From Brevinematales bacterium (GTDB lineage: Bacteria > Spirochaetota > Brevinematia > Brevinematales > GWF1-51-8), in assembly GCA_020059465.1 (NCBI GenBank), contig JAGVBZ010000045.1, forward strand, positions 1-41,780: a stretch of DNA of 41,780 nucleotides. Direction: 5' to 3'. The notes beneath the pieces are model-generated. The model saw only the letters and a program-made list of their open reading frames with translations, ran no database searches and had not been told where the DNA came from. A program made the position numbers and the translations under genes. Positions 13,686 through 26,267 of this stretch are shown piece by piece (position 1 is the stretch's first letter; each line of letters starts with the position of its first letter).

Positions 13686-15986
13686 TTATAATAACATTCC
13701 TGCGATGGTCGCGGTCATCCAGGAAGCAAGCGCCCCGCCGATCATCGCCTTAAATCCGAGCGACGCGAGATCGGAACGGCGTTCCGGCGATAATGCGCTG
13801 ATACCGCCGATCTGGATACCGATCGAGCTGAAATTCGCGAACCCGCAGAACGCATACGTCGATATGATCACAGCCTTCTGCGAAATAACCTGCACCCCCG
13901 AGGCCAGCGTACCGGCAGCAAGCATATTGTTCGCACTGATATGATCGCCCAACGTAATATATGCAATGAACTCGTTAATCGTTATTTTCAATCCGAGCAT
14001 ATTGCCCACAGCGGCGGAATCCTCCCACGGTACGCCCATTACAAACGCGAGGGGACGGAAAACGAAGCCGAAAAGCTCCTTCATGCTCATCGGGAAAATT
14101 CCGGCGTAGCCGCCGTCGGGGCCGAGCTTTCCCCCGAATATGATACCGTCGAACAATTTATCGCCCCATCCGAGAAGCACGTCCACAAACGCAAGAATCG
14201 CGATAAACGATAGCAGCATAGCGGCGACATTCGCGGCAAGCTTCAATCCGTCGGTAGTCCCGGCGGTAACCGCTTCTACGATATTATCACCGACTTTGAT
14301 ATCGGGCATTTCCGCATCGCCCGCAGTCATCGACGTTTCCGTCTCCGGATGGATGATTTTCGCTATTACCAGCGCGGCGGGTGCGGACATCACACTTGCT
14401 GCGATCAGATGCTGTGCGGGAACACCCAGCCCGATGTATGCCGCAAGGACTCCTCCCGCGATAGTAGCAAATCCCCCTATCATGACCGCGTTCAGTTCAG
14501 ACTTGGTCATATCGGCAAGGAACGGCTTAATCAGGAAGGGCGATTCAGTCTGTCCGACAAAGATGTTCGCCGAGCAGGATAAGGTTTCCGCGCCGCTTGT
14601 TCCCATATTCCACATCATGAATTTCCCCATTGCGGAGATTACGATCTGGATAATACCGAGATAATACAGCATCGACATGAACGCCGAGAAGAAGATGATT
14701 GTCGGGATGACATTTACAAGGAAAACGAACATATTCGCTTTCCGCATCATATCGACCAATTGCTCGCCGAGCAGGAACTCGGTACCTTTCCATGTCAGCG
14801 AAAGAAAGCCGGAAACTTTATCCGATAGAAACGCCATCAACTGCTGGCCGGATATCCCTCGCGCCCATAATACCGCAACAGTGAGAATCACAACCGCAAC
14901 AAATGCATTCCGGGCCCATACTCCCTTTTTCGCCAATAACGAAACGATATAGAACACAAATACTGCGATCAGGATATAGGTCGTAATATGCAGGTTGCCG
15001 AGGGTTTCCCCGAAGTAGAAAAGCGTCACCGCCGCCGCTCCGCCGAAGAGTATTATCAGCGCGAAAAGAAACGGATTGAGTTTGATATTCTGCATGTCTT
15101 TTTCGAATATATAAAAGAGGATCATAAATGTAAAAATGAACATCCCGATAAACGAGATAATCCCGCTTCCGAGAATAATCAGCGCAAAAAGAAGCTGTAA
15201 CCCCACACCCCATAATACCGTTTTCAGTTTGATCGCTTTCCGGTTATTGGACATCAGGAACGCGATTCCCAGAAGTACGAGCATCCCGGCCACACTGATT
15301 AGACGATACCATTGCTGGGGTACGTCGATCCGGATAGTCAGTAGAACAGGCGCGCCCTCGTTTCCGGCGCCGTCGATCGCCTTAACCTGAACCGTATGAT
15401 CGCCGTTCTCAAGCGCCTCCAGCTTAAATTCCCATACCGACGCTCCGTCGGCGCTCTTCCACTCGCCGTTATCGATCGAATATTTTACTTCTTTTATACC
15501 GCTTGCGTCTACTACGCCGTCGTCCGCCGTACCGGAGAGCATAAACGTATCGTAAGGGATACGGACATTAGTGCCTTCCAATGTAAATTTCACCACCGGC
15601 GCAGACTTATCCGCTATCGACGGGTTTATCGTTACAGCCATTTCCTTGACCGCGGAACGGGCTCCCGTCACATCCTCGGAATAAATATATAGGATATGCT
15701 TCCCGGCGGATAGTCCGTCGTACGTTATTTTCCATTTTCCCGCCCCAGCCGCCTGTTTCGCGTCTGATGGTTTATCTATCGCGATAAAAACCCCCTTCAG
15801 GGCGGGTTTGTCTTTCACCTGCATAAACGCCCCGGAAACCGTGAGGGAATTCCCCGAGATCTCCGCGTTCTCTTTCGGAAATACCGTATCCGGGCTTTTC
15901 ATAGAGGCATCCGTCTTACTCTGCGAATACCCCGTACCCGCGGCTATCAGCACACTGAAAAGTAAAAACGAGATTATTTTCTTCAT
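13686..15986 (-). CDS. CNT-family nucleoside transporter with N-terminal Ig-like extension
   Basis: A 766-residue protein. A signal peptide (1-21) is followed by about 200 residues of two Ig-like beta-sandwich modules (LSAGKHILYIYSEDVTG and LENGDHTVQVKAIDGAGNE mark their ends), expected in the periplasm. From about residue 228 on it is a concentrative nucleoside transporter: repeated membrane spans and the signature around ETLSCSANIFVGQTESP (about 467-483). CNT proteins import nucleosides with Na+ or H+. The usual bacterial length is about 400 residues, so the extracytoplasmic extension is unusual. The RBS AGGAGGG precedes the ATG. It is followed by udk, which supports the nucleoside substrate. 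Confidence 0.92.
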   Translation of the reverse strand: MKKIISFLLFSVLIAAGTGYSQSKTDASMKSPDTVFPKENAEISGNSLTVSGAFMQVKDKPALKGVFIAIDKPSDAKQAAGAGKWKITYDGLSAGKHILYIYSEDVTGARSAVKEMAVTINPSIADKSAPVVKFTLEGTNVRIPYDTFMLSGTADDGVVDASGIKEVKYSIDNGEWKSADGASVWEFKLEALENGDHTVQVKAIDGAGNEGAPVLLTIRIDVPQQWYRLISVAGMLVLLGIAFLMSNNRKAIKLKTVLWGVGLQLLFALIILGSGIISFIGMFIFTFMILFYIFEKDMQNIKLNPFLFALIILFGGAAAVTLFYFGETLGNLHITTYILIAVFVFYIVSLLAKKGVWARNAFVAVVILTVAVLWARGISGQQLMAFLSDKVSGFLSLTWKGTEFLLGEQLVDMMRKANMFVFLVNVIPTIIFFSAFMSMLYYLGIIQIVISAMGKFMMWNMGTSGAETLSCSANIFVGQTESPFLIKPFLADMTKSELNAVMIGGFATIAGGVLAAYIGLGVPAQHLIAASVMSAPAALVIAKIIHPETETSMTAGDAEMPDIKVGDNIVEAVTAGTTDGLKLAANVAAMLLSFIAILAFVDVLLGWGDKLFDGIIFGGKLGPDGGYAGIFPMSMKELFGFVFRPLAFVMGVPWEDSAAVGNMLGLKITINEFIAYITLGDHISANNMLAAGTLASGVQVISQKAVIISTYAFCGFANFSSIGIQIGGISALSPERRSDLASLGFKAMIGGALASWMTATIAGMLL

Positions 15987-16064: not shown

Positions 16065-17537
16065 TTACCAGATATTCGTTACCCATTCCGGATGATCGAT
16101 GAACGGGTTGCGGTTTCCCTGGAAAAGCGTGTAGATCAGGTTATTCCGCAGCATCTCCTCCGGGCTGGGGGGGTCGAGAAAATGCCACTGGATCAGGACG
16201 GATAATTTGCCCATATACGGCATTCCGTTGGTAAGTATAATCGAATCGCGCAGTTCCAGATCGGGTTCGGTCGGGAGATTCCCCGCGTAACGCACCGCCA
16301 TATAGAACATCGCCCTTGCAATATCGCCCTTGACATCGTCCGGGGGCTCCCAACTGATATTGACATTCACTTCCTTTAGGCTTGGCGGTACTATTCCGTT
16401 GGTGAGATTGATATAGTACGGCGTCCCCGCTTTCGGAGTACCGCCGTTATCGAACGGATCGTTTGAGCGGTCGTTATTTACTCCGCCGATGGCAGCACGC
16501 AGGGCGAATATATCGGTATAAGGGGGCCAATCGGTTTTATCATTAAACCCGTATGTGTTCGGCCAAAGATGCTCGCGTTCCCAATACAGCCAGCGCTGAT
16601 CGCCCGAAAGGCCGCCGGGATTCTGCATGGTTTTCGGAATCGATTGAAATGTATAGATAGTCAGTACATTATTGTGGTTGCCGGGGTCTTCGTCCAATAT
16701 CCAAAGCGCGTCCCAAACATCGGTTGTGAAAGCCGTATAAGGAAACACCGTGTGCTGGTCGATGATATCGTGCAGGGCATTCTTGAGGGCCTGCCCCGTT
16801 TTCCCGTACGCGGACGAGTAATAGTAAAAATACGGGTCGGTCGTTATGTAATTGGTAAAGACATAGAAATTTACCTGCGTAACAAGGCTTTCCACACCGA
16901 GAAGATTCTTAACTTTCACATACGCGGTGTAGCTCCCGTTGGTAAGAGTCAGGTTGGTCGTCCAATCGCCCGTAAGATCGCCGGGGTTAATTCCCCCCGC
17001 CTTACCGTAAGGCGAACTGTTCAGCGAGAAATATACCCCTTCCAAACCAGCCGCGTCTCCGGCAGTCCCGTATATTGATATTTTGTTCGTGATATATATT
17101 TTATCGTTTACCGGAGGTTCGTCTATCGTGACCACAGGGAGATTTGTCCCCGAACTGCCGACCTCGATATTCAGGAGAAGTTTCATTTCGTTTAAATTCT
17201 CCCCGCCTGCGCCCTTTCCGATAAACCGCAGGAGATGAATCCCGCTGTCGACCTCATATACCTCGAACACAGTGCTCCAAGACCCGTCCGGCAGAAGCGA
17301 GACAATTTTCGGGTTGTACCCGCCTATAACGACAACCGATTTAATATCGCTTCCGGCAATACCCTCGACTGTCACCGGACGGGTTACGACCGCGCCCTGA
17401 GACGGTGTCAGGATTACCATATTGGTATACTTCGGCCCCGGGGTCCCCCCAGCAATATCGCGCAGGTTCGTACAGGATGCTGAAAGAAGAATAAGCATCA
17501 GTATACCCGAAAGTATCCATGAAGGCTTTTTTATCAT
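16065..17537 (-). CDS. Endonuclease I family lipoprotein with Ig-like repeats
   Basis: A 490-residue lipoprotein (lipobox LLSASC, Cys22). Residues about 40-230 form two Ig-like modules. The C-terminal 250 residues are an endonuclease I (EndA/BsnA-type) domain with REHLWP (Glu322, His323), GGVNNDRSN, PFDNGG, a WEP-DVKGDIARAMFYMAVRY region and GNRNPFIDHPEWV at the end. These nucleases cut DNA and RNA with little specificity, using Mg2+ and the Glu-His pair. The usual D-(L/M)-H-(H/N) tetrapeptide is replaced by DIFA (342-345). A gap of 15 bp separates it from the upstream gene, and AAGGA is the RBS. It probably acts on the cell surface or in the periplasm. Confidence 0.9.
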   Translation of the reverse strand: MIKKPSWILSGILMLILLSASCTNLRDIAGGTPGPKYTNMVILTPSQGAVVTRPVTVEGIAGSDIKSVVVIGGYNPKIVSLLPDGSWSTVFEVYEVDSGIHLLRFIGKGAGGENLNEMKLLLNIEVGSSGTNLPVVTIDEPPVNDKIYITNKISIYGTAGDAAGLEGVYFSLNSSPYGKAGGINPGDLTGDWTTNLTLTNGSYTAYVKVKNLLGVESLVTQVNFYVFTNYITTDPYFYYYSSAYGKTGQALKNALHDIIDQHTVFPYTAFTTDVWDALWILDEDPGNHNNVLTIYTFQSIPKTMQNPGGLSGDQRWLYWEREHLWPNTYGFNDKTDWPPYTDIFALRAAIGGVNNDRSNDPFDNGGTPKAGTPYYINLTNGIVPPSLKEVNVNISWEPPDDVKGDIARAMFYMAVRYAGNLPTEPDLELRDSIILTNGMPYMGKLSVLIQWHFLDPPSPEEMLRNNLIYTLFQGNRNPFIDHPEWVTNIW

Positions 17538-17552
17538 ATATATTTATCCTTT

Positions 17553-19118
17553 TTAATCGCTGCCCGGTGTACCGAGATTACCATATGCGGCGTAGGTCGG
17601 GTAGTAATTTTTGACTGTCACTGCCGACGACCATTCTGTGGTAAGCGCGCCGTCCCCGATAGGAAGGGTGAGGTCGCGTACCATCGGGACACCCGAATTA
17701 CCTCCGTATGTCGAAGGAGCGTTATATACATTCCCTGCGCGGTCGATATTATTCCCCAGCCCGTTCTGCAGTACCATCGTGAACCCTGTGTGATTGATGA
17801 ACATCCACTGCCAGTAAAAATCGTAAACCGAGAACACTTTCGTACTCGACGCGATCGTATAATGCCTGCCGGGCGCTAATACCGTCCCGTATGGAATAGT
17901 GAATATATTCGGCTCGCTCTGGACATTAAAATTGGTGATAATGACGCGGTATCCTCCGATATTGATCGATTGAGTGCTGACATTCTTCAGTTCGATAAAG
18001 CACGGCGCGTAATCGAGGCTTGTCCCGCTTAGTTTGATCCCCTTCCACAAAATCTCACTGAATACGATATCCTGATATGCGGCCGGATACTTAAACACCG
18101 GCGGCGTAATCGCGACATTCGAGACACCCGCCCCCGCCGTTTTCACGGCGATAGAGTTGTATATCTCTTTCACATACGGCCCGGTAATCATCAGGCAGAC
18201 GCCGTCGTTCTTCAGTGCCGACGAATCGTCCATCAGGTCGAATGTGGTAAATATCATGGTTTGGAACTGAGTATCGAGATCGGCGAAAATAATATTGAAA
18301 TCGAACGATGTATCCAGCACGCGCCCGCCGTTGGTCAGCAGGTACGCAAAGTTCGACAATTTCACGACCGCGCCCGGCGCGAAATCGAGGGTACTGCCGG
18401 GGCAGGAGTTCATCACATCGTTTAAAAGAAGCGCGAGTCCCGATTGTCCGAGAGCGCGGAGATTGCCCTTGATCGACGTATAGGTCTGGCCGAGCCGTGC
18501 CCGGATATGGGCAAATACGCTGTCGGTCGGATGAAAATACAGTTCGACCCAGTTGTCGCGGATATAATAATTCTGCACCTGATTGACCGGAAGTTTCTTT
18601 TCATAGCTGTCGCTCCCGTATGCGAATCGCCCGTCCCGGAACATCTGGAGGAACTCGCTCTCGAAACTGTACAGCATATCGCGGTCGGTCATCTTAAATA
18701 CTACGAATTTATCCGCCGCAATAGCCGACGATGACAGCAGATAGATCATCCCGTCAATAATAAAGAAATTGTCGTCCATATCGCCGTATGTATTTCCGAA
18801 ATTGGTGGAAACCGATGAAGAGATGCCTGCCAGCGACGCATTGTAATCCGCGTCCACCAGCAACTGAACCGTCACATTTCTTGCGGCGGCGGCTTCGAGA
18901 ACCGCTATGATCCCAGCGTCGTTCAAATCCTTCACAGCGACACATATCCTGTTGGTAGCCTTGCCGATTGCCAGAGAAAGGGCGCTTTTACCCCCGGACG
19001 GAATGAACTCGAGGGTGTCGTACCCTAGGCCCGAAGGGGGTTCCGCGCAGCCGCTAAACACGATACCGAAGCACATCACCGCAAGTAATAGAATATCCCG
19101 TTTTATCGATAAAATCAT
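17553..19118 (-). CDS. Degenerate PLD-fold lipoprotein with lamin-tail domain
   Basis: A 521-residue lipoprotein (lipobox VFSGC, Cys24). It resembles the PLD-LTD protein at 23770-25536, but both HxK(x4)D catalytic motifs are altered: MDDNFFIID gives Asp115, Asn117, Asp122, and FDFNIIFAD gives Asp273, Asn275, Asp280. The same change (H to D, K to N, final D kept) in both halves is striking, and phosphodiesterase activity by the usual mechanism is not expected. A lamin-tail domain follows at about 350-465 (FIELKNVS, GTVLAPGRHYTIAS). The start at 19118 has GAGAGG six bases upstream and gives a clean signal peptide; an upstream extension to 19223 runs into the beta-barrel gene. Confidence 0.82.
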   Translation of the reverse strand: MILSIKRDILLLAVMCFGIVFSGCAEPPSGLGYDTLEFIPSGGKSALSLAIGKATNRICVAVKDLNDAGIIAVLEAAAARNVTVQLLVDADYNASLAGISSSVSTNFGNTYGDMDDNFFIIDGMIYLLSSSAIAADKFVVFKMTDRDMLYSFESEFLQMFRDGRFAYGSDSYEKKLPVNQVQNYYIRDNWVELYFHPTDSVFAHIRARLGQTYTSIKGNLRALGQSGLALLLNDVMNSCPGSTLDFAPGAVVKLSNFAYLLTNGGRVLDTSFDFNIIFADLDTQFQTMIFTTFDLMDDSSALKNDGVCLMITGPYVKEIYNSIAVKTAGAGVSNVAITPPVFKYPAAYQDIVFSEILWKGIKLSGTSLDYAPCFIELKNVSTQSINIGGYRVIITNFNVQSEPNIFTIPYGTVLAPGRHYTIASSTKVFSVYDFYWQWMFINHTGFTMVLQNGLGNNIDRAGNVYNAPSTYGGNSGVPMVRDLTLPIGDGALTTEWSSAVTVKNYYPTYAAYGNLGTPGSD

Positions 19119-19128
19119 CCGTTTCCTC

Positions 19129-20742
19129 TCAAAACTCCAACTCGGTAAACAAATCGCACCCGAACGCGGGTTGGTTCCCGTAGGGGGCGTCCTTGATACT
19201 CGCATAATAAGCGTAAAACGCACCGGGAAGGAATATTCCCCCCTCCAAACCTATTTTAAATACACCCTGACTGAATACATAGGATACCGACCAGTCGATC
19301 TCAAACCCCATAAGCCTGCCGAGACGCATCTGATCGAATACATCGGGCGGAAGCGCCATATTGGTGTCCATAGAGGTGGAACTCGTGTCCATATAGAACC
19401 ATCCTTCGACCGATGCGTTCAGCCCCTGCTTTCCGGGAGCTTTGCCGGAAAGATCGAGATTCTCGATCTCCAGTTTGGCCGATGCTGAAAAAATCGGCGC
19501 TTTATGCTTCGCTACTATAGGATTGAAATCGATACCGGAGTAGTTAATATACGCCGAGGGATAAACCCCGTAATACTTACTGTAAATATATCCTCCGATC
19601 TTATCACCCTTCATCGAGACAAAACCGTAGTTCAGGTAATTGCCGTATTTATCGGTGGATGCGCCGCTTGTGTAGACAACATCCGCGGCGAATTTGAACC
19701 ATTCCATCCCCATTTCCTTGAAAGGCACTATGACGGAGCCGTGCAGAAGTATGCCGGAAATATCGACATTCGGCTTATCGGTGCTTTTTCTGTCGATACC
19801 GAACGAGTACGCGCCCTCGAGAAGTACCGATACGGCTTTGGTATCGAATAAAACGTTCAGTCCGGCAATCATCACCCAGTCGTTATCGGCAAAATTCCCC
19901 TCCGTACCGATCTTGGAGCGTTCATACCCGCCCATGTTATAGGTACTCTCCCCGGTCGCGCCTACGCGCGCGAAGAGAAAATACGGGCTTGCCAGTAGGG
20001 TTTTTATAAAATCGTCCGCGCCGCCGGTCATTTTCCAGTACGGCATAATCCCCATTTTAAATATATTTACATCCCCGTCAAAATACGGCACAGTATAATC
20101 ATGCCGGGGGGTTTTGAGGGTATAAATATCGCTGGCGGGCGAATTGAGCGAAAAGAAATCGAAGAACACGCTTGCGCCGATCCCTGAGTCTTTCATCAGG
20201 AAATCCACCCGGAACGCATCGAGATAATCGTCCAGAACATATCCGTTATGGTCGTCCGAATCGATTATCGACACAGGCTGCCTCCCGATCGTCAAATCAA
20301 GCCCGACCGCAGAACTATTCAGAATCGCCTTGGCGATATCGAATCTGCTCAGGAGCGTCCAAAGATAGAACGCGCTGTACTTCGACCCGGTCGTCAGGGA
20401 ATCGTTTCCCCAGTATCCGGGGCGGGACACTTCCACTTCGAGTGCGATATAGTCGAGTATTTCGGCCTTCGCCGATACCCCGATCTCGGAGAACCCGACA
20501 AACACAGCATCGTCGGAATATTCAACAGTCGCATAGCTCGAACTGTCGGTCAGCTTCAGGTCGCCGTTGGCAAAGAAATAGAAGCTGTTCTTCAGGTATG
20601 CGCTGAACGTCAGCGACTTCAGCACAGGCGTGTTGGTCGCACTTGTCTTGATCTCCATCGGCGTCTCACCTTCCTGTGCGGAGACATACGGTGTGTTCAG
20701 GAAAACCGCAGCGGCGATAATAATAACTCCGGATAATTTCAT
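19129..20742 (-). CDS. Outer-membrane beta-barrel protein (porin-like)
   Basis: A 537-residue protein with a signal peptide (about 1-22, cleaving after VSA) and no lipobox. The body consists of alternating hydrophobic/polar strands rich in Tyr, Phe, Gly and Ser, and it ends in TELEF, a C-terminal Phe typical of outer-membrane barrels. I cannot name the family. It sits between the 5'-nucleotidase gene (18 bp) and the degenerate PLD gene (10 bp), so it may form the channel through which nucleotides, nucleosides or oligonucleotides cross the outer membrane (inference). The RBS is AAGGAG. Confidence 0.75.
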   Translation of the reverse strand: MKLSGVIIIAAAVFLNTPYVSAQEGETPMEIKTSATNTPVLKSLTFSAYLKNSFYFFANGDLKLTDSSSYATVEYSDDAVFVGFSEIGVSAKAEILDYIALEVEVSRPGYWGNDSLTTGSKYSAFYLWTLLSRFDIAKAILNSSAVGLDLTIGRQPVSIIDSDDHNGYVLDDYLDAFRVDFLMKDSGIGASVFFDFFSLNSPASDIYTLKTPRHDYTVPYFDGDVNIFKMGIMPYWKMTGGADDFIKTLLASPYFLFARVGATGESTYNMGGYERSKIGTEGNFADNDWVMIAGLNVLFDTKAVSVLLEGAYSFGIDRKSTDKPNVDISGILLHGSVIVPFKEMGMEWFKFAADVVYTSGASTDKYGNYLNYGFVSMKGDKIGGYIYSKYYGVYPSAYINYSGIDFNPIVAKHKAPIFSASAKLEIENLDLSGKAPGKQGLNASVEGWFYMDTSSTSMDTNMALPPDVFDQMRLGRLMGFEIDWSVSYVFSQGVFKIGLEGGIFLPGAFYAYYASIKDAPYGNQPAFGCDLFTELEF

Positions 20743-20760: not shown

Positions 20761-22251
20761 CTATATCGCGGGGAGAATGACTCGTTTCGTCATATCCACC
20801 GATTGAACGGTTATTTTCTTCAGCTTTTTCAGGTACGATACGATCAGGTCGCGGAAATTCAGACCGGTATGAATAATTGCCGTACCCTGGGTGAACTGTA
20901 TATAATTATCCCCGCCCTTCGACATGAAATCGCTGACCGCGATTTTATATATTTTATTGTCGTCGATCGGTTTCCCTTTGAACATGATGACCGGCGTTTT
21001 CGATTTATCGGCCGAAATCTTCACTCCCTTGGAATAGTACAGAAACGCGCCTTGTCCGCGATTCGCCACACCCGCCTTCATGATCTCCTTGATATACTTG
21101 CCCTGCAGCTTCACGATACACAGCTCGTTATCGAAGGGCGAGACTGCGGTAATATCGCCTAAAGTAACAACACCGTCGGGGAGATAGTAACGGATAGACC
21201 CGGCGTTAATAATCGACATATCAGCGCCCGGCGCCGCCTGCAGGATAATATCCGCGATAAAGTTCCCCAGCGGAAGCTGATTCTCACGAATACCCTGCTG
21301 TTCGAAATATACCTCGGAATCGCATATCTTTTCCGCCATCATATCCTTAAATGCCGCGTTCTTATTGGAAATAAATTTTACCGTTTCTATATCTTCAGCG
21401 ATATTGCTGTTAATGGTTAATAATTCGTACTCCCGAGCGATTATTTTACCGCCGGCGACTTCCAATTTCAATATCCCCGCATAGAGACCGTAATTCCCAG
21501 CCTGTACGATCATTGTATTGCTGATATAGACAGGCGTGAATATAGGAGTATGGGTATGCCCGCCGATAATCACGTCAATTTCCGGTACGGCGGCCGCAAG
21601 CTGCATATCCTGTGTGAATCCGCTATGAGTGACGCAGATCAGGAAATCGTTAGTTTTCATGAGTTCCGTGGTGCGGAGGAGGCTTTTTAACGTCTCGATC
21701 TCAGGCTCGATCGTGACCAGTTTAATCGCATCCTGGTTAATCGTACCGATATTCGACGTGGTCATCCCCACGAATACGATCTTGATACCGTGGATTTGTT
21801 TGATGATATAGGGAATAAATATCCGATCGCCGCTCTGTTTATCGAAAATATTGGCGGACATCATCGGGAACTGCGCCATCATCCTGAGCGCTAACAGGTT
21901 GCTCAGGCCGTAATCGAATTCATGGTTTCCAACTGTCATCATATCGAATTTCATCCGATTCATCAGCTCTATATTCATCGTGCCTTTGTATACCGAACTG
22001 AAAAGCGTGCCGGAAAGGGTGTCCCCCGCGAGAACAAGCATCATATCGGGGTACTGTGCACGGATTGTGTTCACCACAGTCACCCCGCGCGCCGCCCCGC
22101 CGAGCGATTCTTTAGCGGCATTGATATAAGGAAGCATATAGGAATGGGTGTCGTTAAAATGCACGATCACAATTTTATCATTCTTCGCGCATGACGACGC
22201 TAAAAGTATTACCGCAATTATAAAGAGCCTGAGCGCATAAACGGGTTTCAT
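20761..22251 (-). CDS. 5'-nucleotidase lipoprotein (UshA/NucA-like), catalytically intact
   Basis: A 496-residue lipoprotein (lipobox LASSC, Cys21). The N-terminal metallophosphatase domain has every ligand motif: HFNDTHS (Asp34, His36), AGDTLSG (Asp77), GNHEFDYG (Asn109, His110), THSGF (His209) and GGHTHT (His232, His234). The C-terminal 5'-nucleotidase domain has NAGSIR and a KGGDNY stretch for the nucleoside. It should remove phosphate from nucleotides outside the inner membrane, yielding nucleosides for the CNT transporter encoded downstream. GGAGGA precedes the ATG. It lies 19 bp after its degenerate paralogue. Confidence 0.93.
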   Translation of the reverse strand: MKPVYALRLFIIAVILLASSCAKNDKIVIVHFNDTHSYMLPYINAAKESLGGAARGVTVVNTIRAQYPDMMLVLAGDTLSGTLFSSVYKGTMNIELMNRMKFDMMTVGNHEFDYGLSNLLALRMMAQFPMMSANIFDKQSGDRIFIPYIIKQIHGIKIVFVGMTTSNIGTINQDAIKLVTIEPEIETLKSLLRTTELMKTNDFLICVTHSGFTQDMQLAAAVPEIDVIIGGHTHTPIFTPVYISNTMIVQAGNYGLYAGILKLEVAGGKIIAREYELLTINSNIAEDIETVKFISNKNAAFKDMMAEKICDSEVYFEQQGIRENQLPLGNFIADIILQAAPGADMSIINAGSIRYYLPDGVVTLGDITAVSPFDNELCIVKLQGKYIKEIMKAGVANRGQGAFLYYSKGVKISADKSKTPVIMFKGKPIDDNKIYKIAVSDFMSKGGDNYIQFTQGTAIIHTGLNFRDLIVSYLKKLKKITVQSVDMTKRVILPAI

Positions 22252-22270: not shown

Positions 22271-23761
22271 CTATTTATTGATAATAGTCTTTCCCGATAA
22301 AAATAAAATTCTGGGAACCGGGTCCGCTATCTGCTCGGTGATAATCTTTACGTTCTGTAAGTAACTTAAAATGATATCCCGGATTAACATCCCCGAGTTG
22401 GTGACCTGCTCGGACTTGAGGAACTCGATATATCCGTCCCCGCCCATCCAAAGAAAGTCCGCTGTCGCAACCGTATAATCCTTTCCGTCCTGAATCGGCG
22501 CTCCGTTCCAAAGGATACCGATTTCCTTATTCGTCCCGACCGTCACCTTCAGTCCTTTAGAGTAATATAAAAAACCCCCGCTTCCCCGCTTATCGATACC
22601 TTTTTTGATGATCTGCTTGAGAACCGAGCCGGAAATCTTACCCTTGACCAGACAGTTCTCATAAGGGAATAATTGATAAATATCTCCGATATGCACTGTT
22701 CCCATAGGAATAGACGACCGGATAGACCCGGAGTTAATCACTGCAATATCTGCCTGTGATGCGTAGGCGAGAATATCCGCTACCAGGTTTCCAATAGTCC
22801 CCGGAAACGAACGAATCGCAGTCGCATCGAGAGTCATCATCGAATCGCATATCTTTTCCATCATCTTCAGATCGACAATCTCCGTCTTGTCGTTCAGATA
22901 AGTCAGCACCCATTTCGAATCGGGGATATTCTTATCCATCGCGACCAAATTATATTTAAACGAATTGATTTTCCCTTCCGAGATAGTCAGATCGATCTTC
23001 CCGACATAGCTCCCGTTCTTGCCCGGCTGTACGATATAAGTGGTTGGGGTGACATACGGCATAACCGTCGTCGTATCTCCGTAACCGGAAAGTATGATAC
23101 TAATCTCGGGGAACGCCTGTGCGAGTACTACATTCCGCTCGAAGCCGAGGTAACTGAGCAGGATGATAATATCGTTTGTGGCGGCAAGTTTTTTATCGCG
23201 CAGGATTTCGCTCAGAACCTGTTCGGGAGGAATAAGATCGACCTGCTCAGCCACTGTCCGGTTGAAAAGGTTCTGGTCGGGGGATGTCATCCCGATTATT
23301 ACGATCTTCGCGCCGGCGATGTTTGTAATCGCGTAGGGTTTGAACTCGGTGCGGGTTTTATTCTTTTCCACAACATTCACCGAAAGGAACGGGAAATTCG
23401 CGATATCTTCGAGCATGAACAAGTTATCCAATCCGTAATCGAATTCATGATGCCCGAGTCCGAGCGCGGTATACCCCATCGCGTTCATGAGTTCGATATT
23501 CACCTTTCCCTTAAAAATAGACGCATATACCGATCCGGGGAGAATTCCGCCGGAATCGAAAATAAGAACATTCTGATTCTTCCCGCGGATACTCTCGATA
23601 TAAGTTTTCAGACGGGCCGCGCCGCCAAGCCCGTCCGCGTCATGTATGAAAAACTGCGACAGCGTATCCGCCGTATGCAGGATTACCAGATGTTCTTTTG
23701 GCGCACAGCCTGTCCATAGCGCTACTGCAATAAAAAATGTTACCCCAATCTTAACTTTCAT
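22271..23761 (-). CDS. Degenerate 5'-nucleotidase-like lipoprotein (probable pseudoenzyme)
   Basis: A 496-residue lipoprotein (lipobox LWTGC, Cys19) that aligns along its full length with the intact 5'-nucleotidase downstream. Nearly all metal or catalytic residues are changed: NDTH becomes ADTL (His to Leu34), GD becomes GG (Gly72), GNHE becomes GHHE (Asn to His104), the THSG His becomes Tyr204 and GHTH becomes GYGD. The C-terminal substrate-binding domain keeps NSGSIR and MGGDGY. Nucleotide binding without hydrolysis is thus plausible. The reading frame is intact, so it is not a decayed gene. The start at 23761 follows GAGG; an ATG at 23773 overlaps the upstream stop and is an alternative. 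Confidence 0.88.
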   Translation of the reverse strand: MKVKIGVTFFIAVALWTGCAPKEHLVILHTADTLSQFFIHDADGLGGAARLKTYIESIRGKNQNVLIFDSGGILPGSVYASIFKGKVNIELMNAMGYTALGLGHHEFDYGLDNLFMLEDIANFPFLSVNVVEKNKTRTEFKPYAITNIAGAKIVIIGMTSPDQNLFNRTVAEQVDLIPPEQVLSEILRDKKLAATNDIIILLSYLGFERNVVLAQAFPEISIILSGYGDTTTVMPYVTPTTYIVQPGKNGSYVGKIDLTISEGKINSFKYNLVAMDKNIPDSKWVLTYLNDKTEIVDLKMMEKICDSMMTLDATAIRSFPGTIGNLVADILAYASQADIAVINSGSIRSSIPMGTVHIGDIYQLFPYENCLVKGKISGSVLKQIIKKGIDKRGSGGFLYYSKGLKVTVGTNKEIGILWNGAPIQDGKDYTVATADFLWMGGDGYIEFLKSEQVTNSGMLIRDIILSYLQNVKIITEQIADPVPRILFLSGKTIINK

Positions 23762-23769
23762 CCCCGACC

Positions 23770-25536
23770 TCATTCCATACCCGGAGTGGCATATGTGTTT
23801 ATTCTATAAAACGGATTAATCGTCGACGCAAAATTCACCCCGCATGTCGTCCAGCTGCCGATCAAAGTCCCGTCGTTCGTCCCGATTCTCACCATCGATT
23901 TGACGTATGCCGACGGGGTGCCGTTGGCAAGAATATCCCCGTGCAGAGGCGCGAGCGATCCCCCGGAAAAATATCCGGCCTTATCTACAACCGCTCCGTT
24001 CTTATCCTTCAGCCACATTTCGATATATGCATGATCGAGCGGGTGATAAAAAAACAGGTGCTCGAACGTATTCGCTTTTTTCAGCGAAGTATAGGCATAA
24101 TTGGTCGAGTAGGTCAGTACATGGAATCCCCCCGGCGGTAGAACCGTACCTTCGGGAAAAATGTACATGACATAATAACGCCCCTTCTGGATTAGCGTAA
24201 TTCCGGAGATAAACCATCCCGATATGTTGATAGAATGCTGCGTATTGTTCTTCAGTTCGATAAACCTATCCCCGGCGACATATTTCCCGTCGAAATCCAT
24301 GCTTCCGCCCCAGTTGATCTCGCTGATAGTTACTTCGCGCATATTCTGCATCGCATCGCCGCCGAGGTCTTTAGTGGGATGGGAACCTACTGCGTACATC
24401 TGCATGAAGTATTTCACGTACAGATCCACTATAAAGGGATCGCGGATAATCAGAAAATTCTCATCGTTGCCGTTATATGATGCGGCCTTGGAAAAATTCA
24501 TCGAACCCGTCAGAACTGCGGCGTTGGTGGTGCCCGGATCGATAACCATAAATTTATTGTGGCATTTTTCACCGCTCAGCGTATTCCCGATCACATGGTT
24601 GTTATTGCCGTCGTACTTCACGAAGATATTCGGCGTGTTCCCGATCTCGTCGATAAACAGCTGATGCGTGGAAGCGTTATTCCCGGTATGCCAGCTTTTA
24701 TCGAAAACACCGTACACCAGCACATTATTCAGCTTCGCGGCGGATATCATCCGATTCGCGATATCGGCATGGGTAAACGCATAGATCGCAAAAAATATTT
24801 TTTCCCGTGCGGTGTCTATGAGGTTTAAAAACACTTTATCCATACGGGTCGTTTCCGTGGCATTGACGCCGTAATAAGGCGCAAAATGTACGGAAATATA
24901 GGTAAAAGTATTATCGGAATTGGTGAGTGAAAATACGTTATTAGTAAACCCGCTGAAAAAATGATCGGTCTTATCGGTGCCAAAAAGCCCCTTAATCAGC
25001 ATAGTCTCGAAATCGCTCCGATAATACGCCGCAATCTGGGGAGAATCGATAAAGAGAACGTTATTATAGCTCCGGAAAATATCCGTCCCGGTAAAATTCG
25101 CCGATCCGCAGACCACATATCGCTTATCCACTATGACATATTTGTTGTGCATAATTTTATCTTTATTGCCGATCCGGAATTGAATACCGAGGGCGACGAG
25201 GGTCTGGTATTCCGCGGAATCCAGATATCCGAAATCTCCGACAAAACGGACGGTCACCCCGCGTTTCCATGCGCCGTATACCGCATTGAATATTGTCGGC
25301 TCGGTTAGTCCCATGATGCATAGATCGACTGAATCCTTAGCGGAGTCGACCAGCATTTTTATTTTTTCCTGTATCTTTGCGTCCACCGCGGATTCGGCGT
25401 TATATCCCGGTGTGGTAAAATACACCTGAATTTTACGGCCGTTCCAGAAATTCCCGGCAGGCGGTTCCCCGATGCTGCAGGATATTACGGTGAAAGAAAG
25501 GATCGATAAAACAAGCATATTCCGCATATTTTTCAT
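23770..25536 (-). CDS. PLD-family nuclease/phosphodiesterase lipoprotein with lamin-tail domain
   Basis: A 588-residue lipoprotein (lipobox VISC, Cys20). Two complete HKD motifs mark an active phospholipase D fold: MHNKYVIVD (His130, Lys132, Asp137) followed by GSANFTG, and CHNKFMVID (His326, Lys328, Asp333) followed by GSMNFS. PLD-fold enzymes cut phosphodiester bonds in lipids or DNA; the neighbouring nuclease and nucleotidase genes favour nucleic acid (inference). A lamin-tail domain at about 402-480 (FIELKNN, GTVLPPGGFHVLTYS) probably holds the protein to a surface or ligand. The start overlaps the upstream stop by one base (TAATG). Confidence 0.9.
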   Translation of the reverse strand: MKNMRNMLVLSILSFTVISCSIGEPPAGNFWNGRKIQVYFTTPGYNAESAVDAKIQEKIKMLVDSAKDSVDLCIMGLTEPTIFNAVYGAWKRGVTVRFVGDFGYLDSAEYQTLVALGIQFRIGNKDKIMHNKYVIVDKRYVVCGSANFTGTDIFRSYNNVLFIDSPQIAAYYRSDFETMLIKGLFGTDKTDHFFSGFTNNVFSLTNSDNTFTYISVHFAPYYGVNATETTRMDKVFLNLIDTAREKIFFAIYAFTHADIANRMISAAKLNNVLVYGVFDKSWHTGNNASTHQLFIDEIGNTPNIFVKYDGNNNHVIGNTLSGEKCHNKFMVIDPGTTNAAVLTGSMNFSKAASYNGNDENFLIIRDPFIVDLYVKYFMQMYAVGSHPTKDLGGDAMQNMREVTISEINWGGSMDFDGKYVAGDRFIELKNNTQHSINISGWFISGITLIQKGRYYVMYIFPEGTVLPPGGFHVLTYSTNYAYTSLKKANTFEHLFFYHPLDHAYIEMWLKDKNGAVVDKAGYFSGGSLAPLHGDILANGTPSAYVKSMVRIGTNDGTLIGSWTTCGVNFASTINPFYRINTYATPGME

Positions 25537-26267
25537 TACTCCTCTCCGCCGCCGCTCTGGCCCTCGCCGCCGGTCACTTGTCCGGGCGAGCAGAACACCG
25601 ATTTATTATACGACGGCCTGACTATCGAATTCGGCGCGGAGAGCGTATATGTCGTCCAATTCTCGATAGTGTAATAGCTTGCCATCGCCCCGCCGTATGA
25701 ATCTTTCAGACGTACCGCTGATTTCCTGATCTTCGAAAGGTTGACCCCCGCGGGCAGGTAAGTTCCGACTGCGAGCGGATCAAGCACAGGCATCGGTTCG
25801 TTGACGCCGAAATCGGCGGTATCGGCGTATTTTTTTCCGCCGCCGTCGTAAATATTGATCACAAATCCCGTTGCCGGCAGTTTCAAGCCGGGGACTATCA
25901 TATTAAAACGGGTGAATGCGCTGTTGGTGTTGTTGCCTATCGTAAACGTTTGACCCTTATCGAGTACTGTCCCCGCCGGCAGGACTATCCGCAGATAGCT
26001 CTGCCCCTCGACAATGATAATCCACCCTGAGAAATCCAGAAGACCGTAATAAGCGTTGCATATCTCGATAAAATCGTCGTCGGGATTGGAGTTCGCCCCG
26101 TTATTGTCGACACTTCCCGCCCAATGAACCTCTTCCACGTAGAGGGACGAGCGTGTTTCCAATAAACCGGTCAGCCCTGAATACGGCTTGCCGTCCGGCT
26201 CGCCGATACACCCGGGAATAAGGAACACGAAAGATAGAGAAATAAAAAAAAGAAGGCGCTTGAACAT
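25536..26267 (-). CDS. Stand-alone lamin-tail-domain lipoprotein
   Basis: A 243-residue lipoprotein (lipobox LIPGC, Cys20) that consists mainly of one lamin-tail domain (about 41-150: YVEEVHWAG, DDDFIEICN, LLDFSGWIIIV, AGTVLDKGQTFTIGN). It has a Gly/Glu-rich tail (GGEGQSGGGEE). No catalytic domain is visible. Its final TAA overlaps the start of the PLD-LTD gene by one base, so it is co-translated and may be a binding partner of that enzyme (inference). The RBS is CGGAG. A 75-bp gap with a strong hairpin lies upstream. Confidence 0.8.
   Translation of the reverse strand: MFKRLLFFISLSFVFLIPGCIGEPDGKPYSGLTGLLETRSSLYVEEVHWAGSVDNNGANSNPDDDFIEICNAYYGLLDFSGWIIIVEGQSYLRIVLPAGTVLDKGQTFTIGNNTNSAFTRFNMIVPGLKLPATGFVINIYDGGGKKYADTADFGVNEPMPVLDPLAVGTYLPAGVNLSKIRKSAVRLKDSYGGAMASYYTIENWTTYTLSAPNSIVRPSYNKSVFCSPGQVTGGEGQSGGGEE

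Follow-up and report, generated by a model that had tools for sequence, protein, structure and literature searches.

Gene content of the locus

The stretch of DNA analysed here, called the window, is the 41,780-nucleotide contig JAGVBZ010000045.1 of a Brevinematales bacterium that shares its genus with the public MAGs GWF1_49_6 and GWF1_51_8. Its reverse strand carries, in this order, genes for a 264-aa lipoprotein, an Ig-domain protein, a lipoprotein with a lamin tail domain (LTD) (25536–26267; PF00932, E 1.1e-7, just under the cut-off), a PLD-LTD lipoprotein (23770–25536), two 5'-nucleotidase homologues (22271–23773 and 20761–22251), a β-barrel protein of outer-membrane type (537 aa; 19129–20742), the PLD-fold protein that is the subject of this study (17553–19118), an endonuclease I lipoprotein with an Ig domain (16065–17537; PF04231, E 2.6e-36), and a CNT-family nucleoside transporter (13686–15986; PF07662, E 9e-70; TIGR00804). 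Intergenic gaps range from −4 to 78 bases. The PLD-LTD protein is NucT-like (PF13091, E 2.2e-38; the NCBIfam NucT match is below cut-off) and both of its HKD sites are intact. The barrel, whose gene lies immediately upstream of the PLD-fold gene, is predicted largely as long β strands; its low-confidence model resembles AlgE and the Occ porins, and it has a weak NCBIfam match to a family named for the Leptospira protein LA_2168.

The two 5'-nucleotidase homologues, identified by domain search, were compared at the motifs that are established as the metal site of the UshA family. The lipoprotein encoded at 20761–22251 retains them (NDTH, AGD, GNHE, THSG, and GGHTHT), while the same places in 22271–23773 read ADTL, SGG, GHHE, SYLG, and SGYGDT, losses that are identical in all three congeners examined. 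The C-terminal substrate domain of the latter protein is kept, and its motifs NSGSIR, FLYYSKG, and GGDGY persist in two congeners and partly in the third. In the following, homologues with and without their active-site motifs are referred to as live and dead, respectively. Judged by these motifs, the operon pairs live and dead copies of two unrelated nucleic-acid enzymes, PLD and 5'-nucleotidase.

Two side observations concern the distal genes. The window has one endonuclease I of a more divergent type, and congener G002 encodes two in tandem (L058:16342–18117 and 18131–19594), one of which is a much stronger match (E 8.9e-81). The CNT transporter (766 aa) carries N-terminal Ig-like/OmpL47-type domains, which is seemingly unusual for a NupC-type protein.

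A two-lobed PLD lipoprotein without HKD motifs

The dead PLD is a protein of 521 aa composed of a lipoprotein signal, about 320 aa of PLD fold, and an LTD (residues 346–462; 17733–18083; PF00932, E 2.3e-9). Its start was placed at the ATG at 19118, which yields a signal peptide; an alternative start of the open reading frame at 19223 overlaps the upstream gene. Signal peptide and lipobox occupy residues 1–24 (19047–19118) and end in FSGC, with Cys24 invariant in the six closest homologues. The lipobox suggests that the protein is exported as a lipoprotein.

The PF13091 score of the dead PLD is below the gathering cut-off. Its two-lobed PLD fold is nevertheless indicated by a profile match to NucT, the nearest solved sequence relative (6ehi; E 5.8e-12), and by a Foldseek search in which PLD-superfamily structures were the best matches (probability 1.00) to a low-confidence model (pLDDT 56, pTM 0.46) that was built from a seven-row alignment and is poor in the second lobe.

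A previous reading of this DNA, made from the sequence only, had placed D115-x-N117-x4-D122 and D273-x-N275-x4-D280 at the HKD sites and had pointed to HxK(x4)D in two copies in the paralogue 23770–25536. Both statements were confirmed by alignment. Site 1 (D115-D-N117-FFII-D122; 18753–18776) aligns column for column with H130-N-K-YVIV-D of the live paralogue, and site 2 (D273-F-N275-IIFA-D280; 18279–18302) with H326-N-K-FMVI-D. The PLD nucleases NucT, Nuc, and PLD3/PLD4 (PF13091) share the two-lobed fold with the dead PLD. Catalytic PLDs have HxK(x4)D twice in each functional unit, followed each time by GSxN or a similar sequence, whereas in the window protein both His and both Lys are replaced, giving DxN(x4)D at both sites, and GSxN has given way to SSSA (site 1) and TTFD (site 2). 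The dead PLD domain is also acidic: the pI of the window copy is about 4.5, and the median in the dead family is 5.1 versus 6.2 in live PLDs.

A family of HKD-less PLDs in Spirochaetota

Close homologues of the dead PLD are 78, 74, and 62% identical to it, and two distant ones 29 and 27%. Across these six sequences site 1 reads DDN (window), DDN, DDN, DSD, SAN, and QSN, and site 2 reads DFN (window), DFN, masked, DFN, WFN, and SCN. Within the genus, DxN is thus present at site 1 in three of four copies (the fourth being DSD) and DFN at site 2 in all three readable copies; neither of the two distant homologues shares the first Asp, though both have the Asn. Outside this genus, Asp takes the place of the His at one distant site only.

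A search of contigs with the single dead PLD protein as query gave no matches. Profiles from three dead subgroups were searched over 393 Spirochaetota genomes, an even sample of the phylum, and one collection scan that was not restricted to this phylum returned three loci, all from Spirochaetota. The loci fetched contained 91 PLD homologues after removal of duplicates, of which 53 carry both HKD motifs and 38 lack both; a single motif was not seen in any of them. At site 1 of the dead PLDs the Asp is kept in 38/38, and the Lys is replaced by Asn in 34/38 (D, T, T, and H in the others). Site 2 is readable in 36 of them; the Asp is kept in 35, and the Lys has become Asn in 29, Gln in four, and Ser in three. 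The His is absent at both sites in all dead PLDs and replaced by varying residues: Y (11), E (8), R (7), but also D, S, K, F, and Q at site 1, and G (21/36), P, S, D, and W at site 2. Site 2 was located by a pattern requiring N, S, or Q in eight rows, i.e., seven Turneriella-type rows (a label of convenience) and one other; when these are left out, the count of Asn, made by hand, is 22/28. For L087 the second pattern match was used, in agreement with the alignment, and in L081, the eighth Turneriella-type row, a profile put site 2 at the same place independently.

Column conservation was ranked over 232 well-filled columns of 37 dead sequences with subgroup weighting. Places 2 and 3 are taken by the two Asp columns, places 9 and 14 by those with Lys changed to Asn, and places 170 and 57 by the His columns. 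The family signature is a twin xxN(x4)D in which both His are lost, Lys is mostly Asn and less often another polar residue, and Asp is kept. The window protein conforms to this definition: it has no His or Lys at either HKD site, and Asp is retained and Asn stands for Lys in both. The check proposed with the earlier reading, whether DxN(x4)D is conserved in both halves of the homologues, thus comes out positive for the Asn and the last Asp but not for the first Asp, which varies outside the genus. A selected DxN(x4)D motif or metal site is unsupported family-wide for the same reason, and nothing was found in favour of a new catalytic variant across the family.

A second group (L110–L122) comprises 13 dead PLDs in open reading frames of about 640 to more than 1700 aa; they occur in Turneriella-type and neighbouring families and lie mostly away from the barrel.

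Phylogeny and selection

In a tree calculated without the motif columns, a single branch separates all 37 dead from all 53 live PLDs (UFBoot 100, SH-aLRT 99). The tree contains long branches; the split was retained after six long rows had been dropped (SH-aLRT 97). AU tests did not reject a tree joining the dead PLDs of the window lineage to live PLD-LTDs (p 0.29) or one joining Turneriella-type dead PLDs to their live neighbours (p 0.07). One ancient origin of the dead PLDs is favoured, though not proven, over several origins. The tree does not favour a recent duplication in place of the live PLD-LTD next to the dead PLD, an alternative that the AU test left unrejected (p 0.29).

Compared with its counterpart in the nearest congener, the PLD domain of the window's dead PLD shows a dN of 0.130 and a dS of 1.37, values within the range of neighbouring working genes. 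The resulting dN/dS of about 0.1 indicates that the gene is under purifying selection. Together with the ranks of the Lys-to-Asn columns, it substantiates the view already taken from the sequence that the parallel change in both halves goes beyond random decay, and the protein, lipid anchor and LTD included, is maintained by selection.

Co-occurrence with the outer-membrane-type barrel

The barrel was found in 30/30 genomes with a dead PLD as compared with 35/393 overall (Fisher p 4e-40, uncorrected for kinship); at the thresholds used, no dead PLD was found in the other five genomes with the barrel. In one of these, G008 (L062:1376–4521), a live PLD-LTD directly adjoins the barrel, an arrangement that is possibly an ancestral or a reduced state.

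Gene order is conserved within groups. In 6/6 genomes of the close group the barrel gene immediately precedes that of the dead PLD; in Turneriella-type genomes the barrel is followed by an LTD lipoprotein, and the dead and then the live PLD come next. In the third group the barrel is located at most about 6 kb from the dead PLD in 6/10 genomes, and in five of these a live PLD is no more than about 8 kb away; several of the remaining ones are on short MAG contigs. Outside the window's class, the loci scanned contained LTD proteins, PLDs, and the barrel, and neither a 5'-nucleotidase nor endonuclease I was found among the neighbours checked.

Discussion

We consider it rather probable that the window protein is an ancient PLD pseudoenzyme acting as a non-hydrolytic partner or binder in a nucleic-acid-scavenging module; whether it captures a ligand or is a structural partner is a separate matter that this estimate does not cover. 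PLD catalysis requires both His of the HKD motifs, and the Lys, which are placed along the active-site cleft of known PLDs, bind phosphate (PMC10783504). With all four residues gone according to the alignment, the protein would be incapable of a phosphohistidine mechanism and is presumably inactive. In PLD3 the HKD Asp is about 20 Å away from the active site and is thought to be structural (PMC10783504), so that its retention in the dead PLDs speaks for the fold and not for catalysis.

Co-occurrence and gene order argue for a surface module in which the dead PLD would be the non-hydrolytic subunit, associated with a live NucT-like PLD, LTD proteins, and the large barrel. The most likely task of this module in this organism would be the capture of extracellular nucleic acid and the uptake of its nucleosides, as suggested by the compact operon, which also encodes a CNT nucleoside transporter, endonuclease I, and two 5'-nucleotidases, one live and one dead. 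Since no 5'-nucleotidase or endonuclease I turned up among the neighbours checked elsewhere, the nucleic-acid role is derived mostly from the window's class. A nucleic-acid setting is also supported by the DNA-degradation loci of Ca. Izemoplasmatales, in which secreted nucleases and a nuclease-LTD protein are encoded together with genes that probably serve nucleoside uptake (PMC8289736). These loci belong to another phylum, and the passages on them mention neither a pseudo-PLD nor an outer-membrane component.

For the dead PLD itself we prefer a model in which it would hold nucleosides, nucleotides, or oligonucleotides where the barrel opens, by analogy with SusD. A cleft that lacks positive charges and is lined by two Asn may suit a neutral or weakly charged ligand, or else packing. 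The acidity of the PLD domain argues against simple DNA binding and makes nucleosides, nucleotide ends, or proteins likelier partners. Capture of substrate or product is placed only slightly ahead of a structural role, which is nearly as likely without being probable in its own right. As a structural pseudoenzyme the protein would have no ligand of its own; it would form a hetero-oligomer with the live PLD, or plug or hold the barrel, similarly to the FAM83 anchors, and Asn and Asp would be kept for packing of the interface between the two lobes. The proximity of live and dead PLD genes across lineages and the acidic surface charge of the dead PLD are compatible with such a function, as are the presumed structural role of the HKD Asp in PLD3 (PMC10783504) and its requirement for protein binding in FAM83 (PMC6008594). 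Yet a ligand bound in the cleft would account more readily for the specific, symmetric Lys-to-Asn replacement there, and the dead 5'-nucleotidase of the same operon keeps its substrate-domain motifs, which hints at binding as a common theme.

The remaining explanations receive far less credit. D115, N117, D273, and N275 could come together at the two-fold axis as ligands of a divalent metal, thereby creating a metal-dependent phosphodiesterase, and in this genus two Asp and two Asn would indeed face each other. However, the His position is occupied by many different residues, which would not be expected of a catalytic ligand common to the family. The variable first position rules out a conserved DxN(x4)D motif or a metal site of two Asp and two Asn for the family as a whole, and we regard a new site of this kind as improbable. 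A decaying gene or a chance pattern, to which the loss of the catalytic residues and of GSxN might point, is hardly credible in view of the dN/dS of about 0.1, the intact frame in homologues, and the recurrence of these substitutions among 38 relatives from several families; random decay is ruled out by dN/dS and by the conservation of the Asn and Asp columns.

The FAM83/SACK1 proteins (PF07894) are PLD-fold pseudoenzymes that have mostly lost the His, have kept the HKD Asp, and now serve as partner proteins or anchors dependent on that Asp (PMC6008594). The dead PLD resembles them in being a pseudo-PLD with lost His and retained Asp; however, FAM83/SACK1 proteins are vertebrate, have one pseudo-HKD per chain, and mostly keep the Lys, whereas the dead PLD is predicted to be exported and has two sites with Lys changed to Asn. 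It did not match PF07894, nor did it match the PF11495 profile. The latter represents TrmB and TrmBL2, which possess a PLD-like fold without catalysis but are archaeal DNA-binding regulators or chromatin proteins, in contrast to the LTD-containing lipoprotein of the window. One dead relative (Nl494_bin20) matches part of PF11495 (E 8.6e-6), and the fold search with the window protein also retrieves TrmBL2 structures. In SusCD-type glycan uptake, a single operon encodes an outer-membrane channel together with degradative enzymes and lipoproteins of the cell surface, and SusD-type lipoproteins hold the glycans. The operon layout is the same here, but the analogy is functional only, and the folds are unrelated: the window protein has a PLD fold, and the barrel is AlgE/Occ-like and not a TonB-dependent SusC.

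To our knowledge, the main examples of PLD pseudoenzymes are FAM83 and PLD5 of vertebrates and TrmB of archaea. Literature searches on PLD together with TrmB, Turneriella, or lamin tail domains, and on lamin tail domains in spirochaetes, yielded nothing relevant, and a named system for outer-membrane uptake of DNA as food in these spirochaetes was not found in the literature searched. As a tentative and rather doubtful generalization, nucleic-acid-degrading enzymes might be accompanied throughout the phylum by dead twins (of PLD, joined in this genus by 5'-nucleotidase) that keep the substrate or the product at an outer-membrane channel of their own, constituting a nutrient-capture device made of pseudoenzymes that would be the nucleic-acid counterpart of SusCD. 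A large bacterial family of pseudo-PLDs with a symmetric Lys-to-Asn replacement, encoded beside a live copy and a fixed channel, allows the use of the PLD cleft after loss of catalysis to be tested. If the nucleic-acid role holds true, the module would represent a route by which these spirochaetes take DNA as food through the outer membrane.
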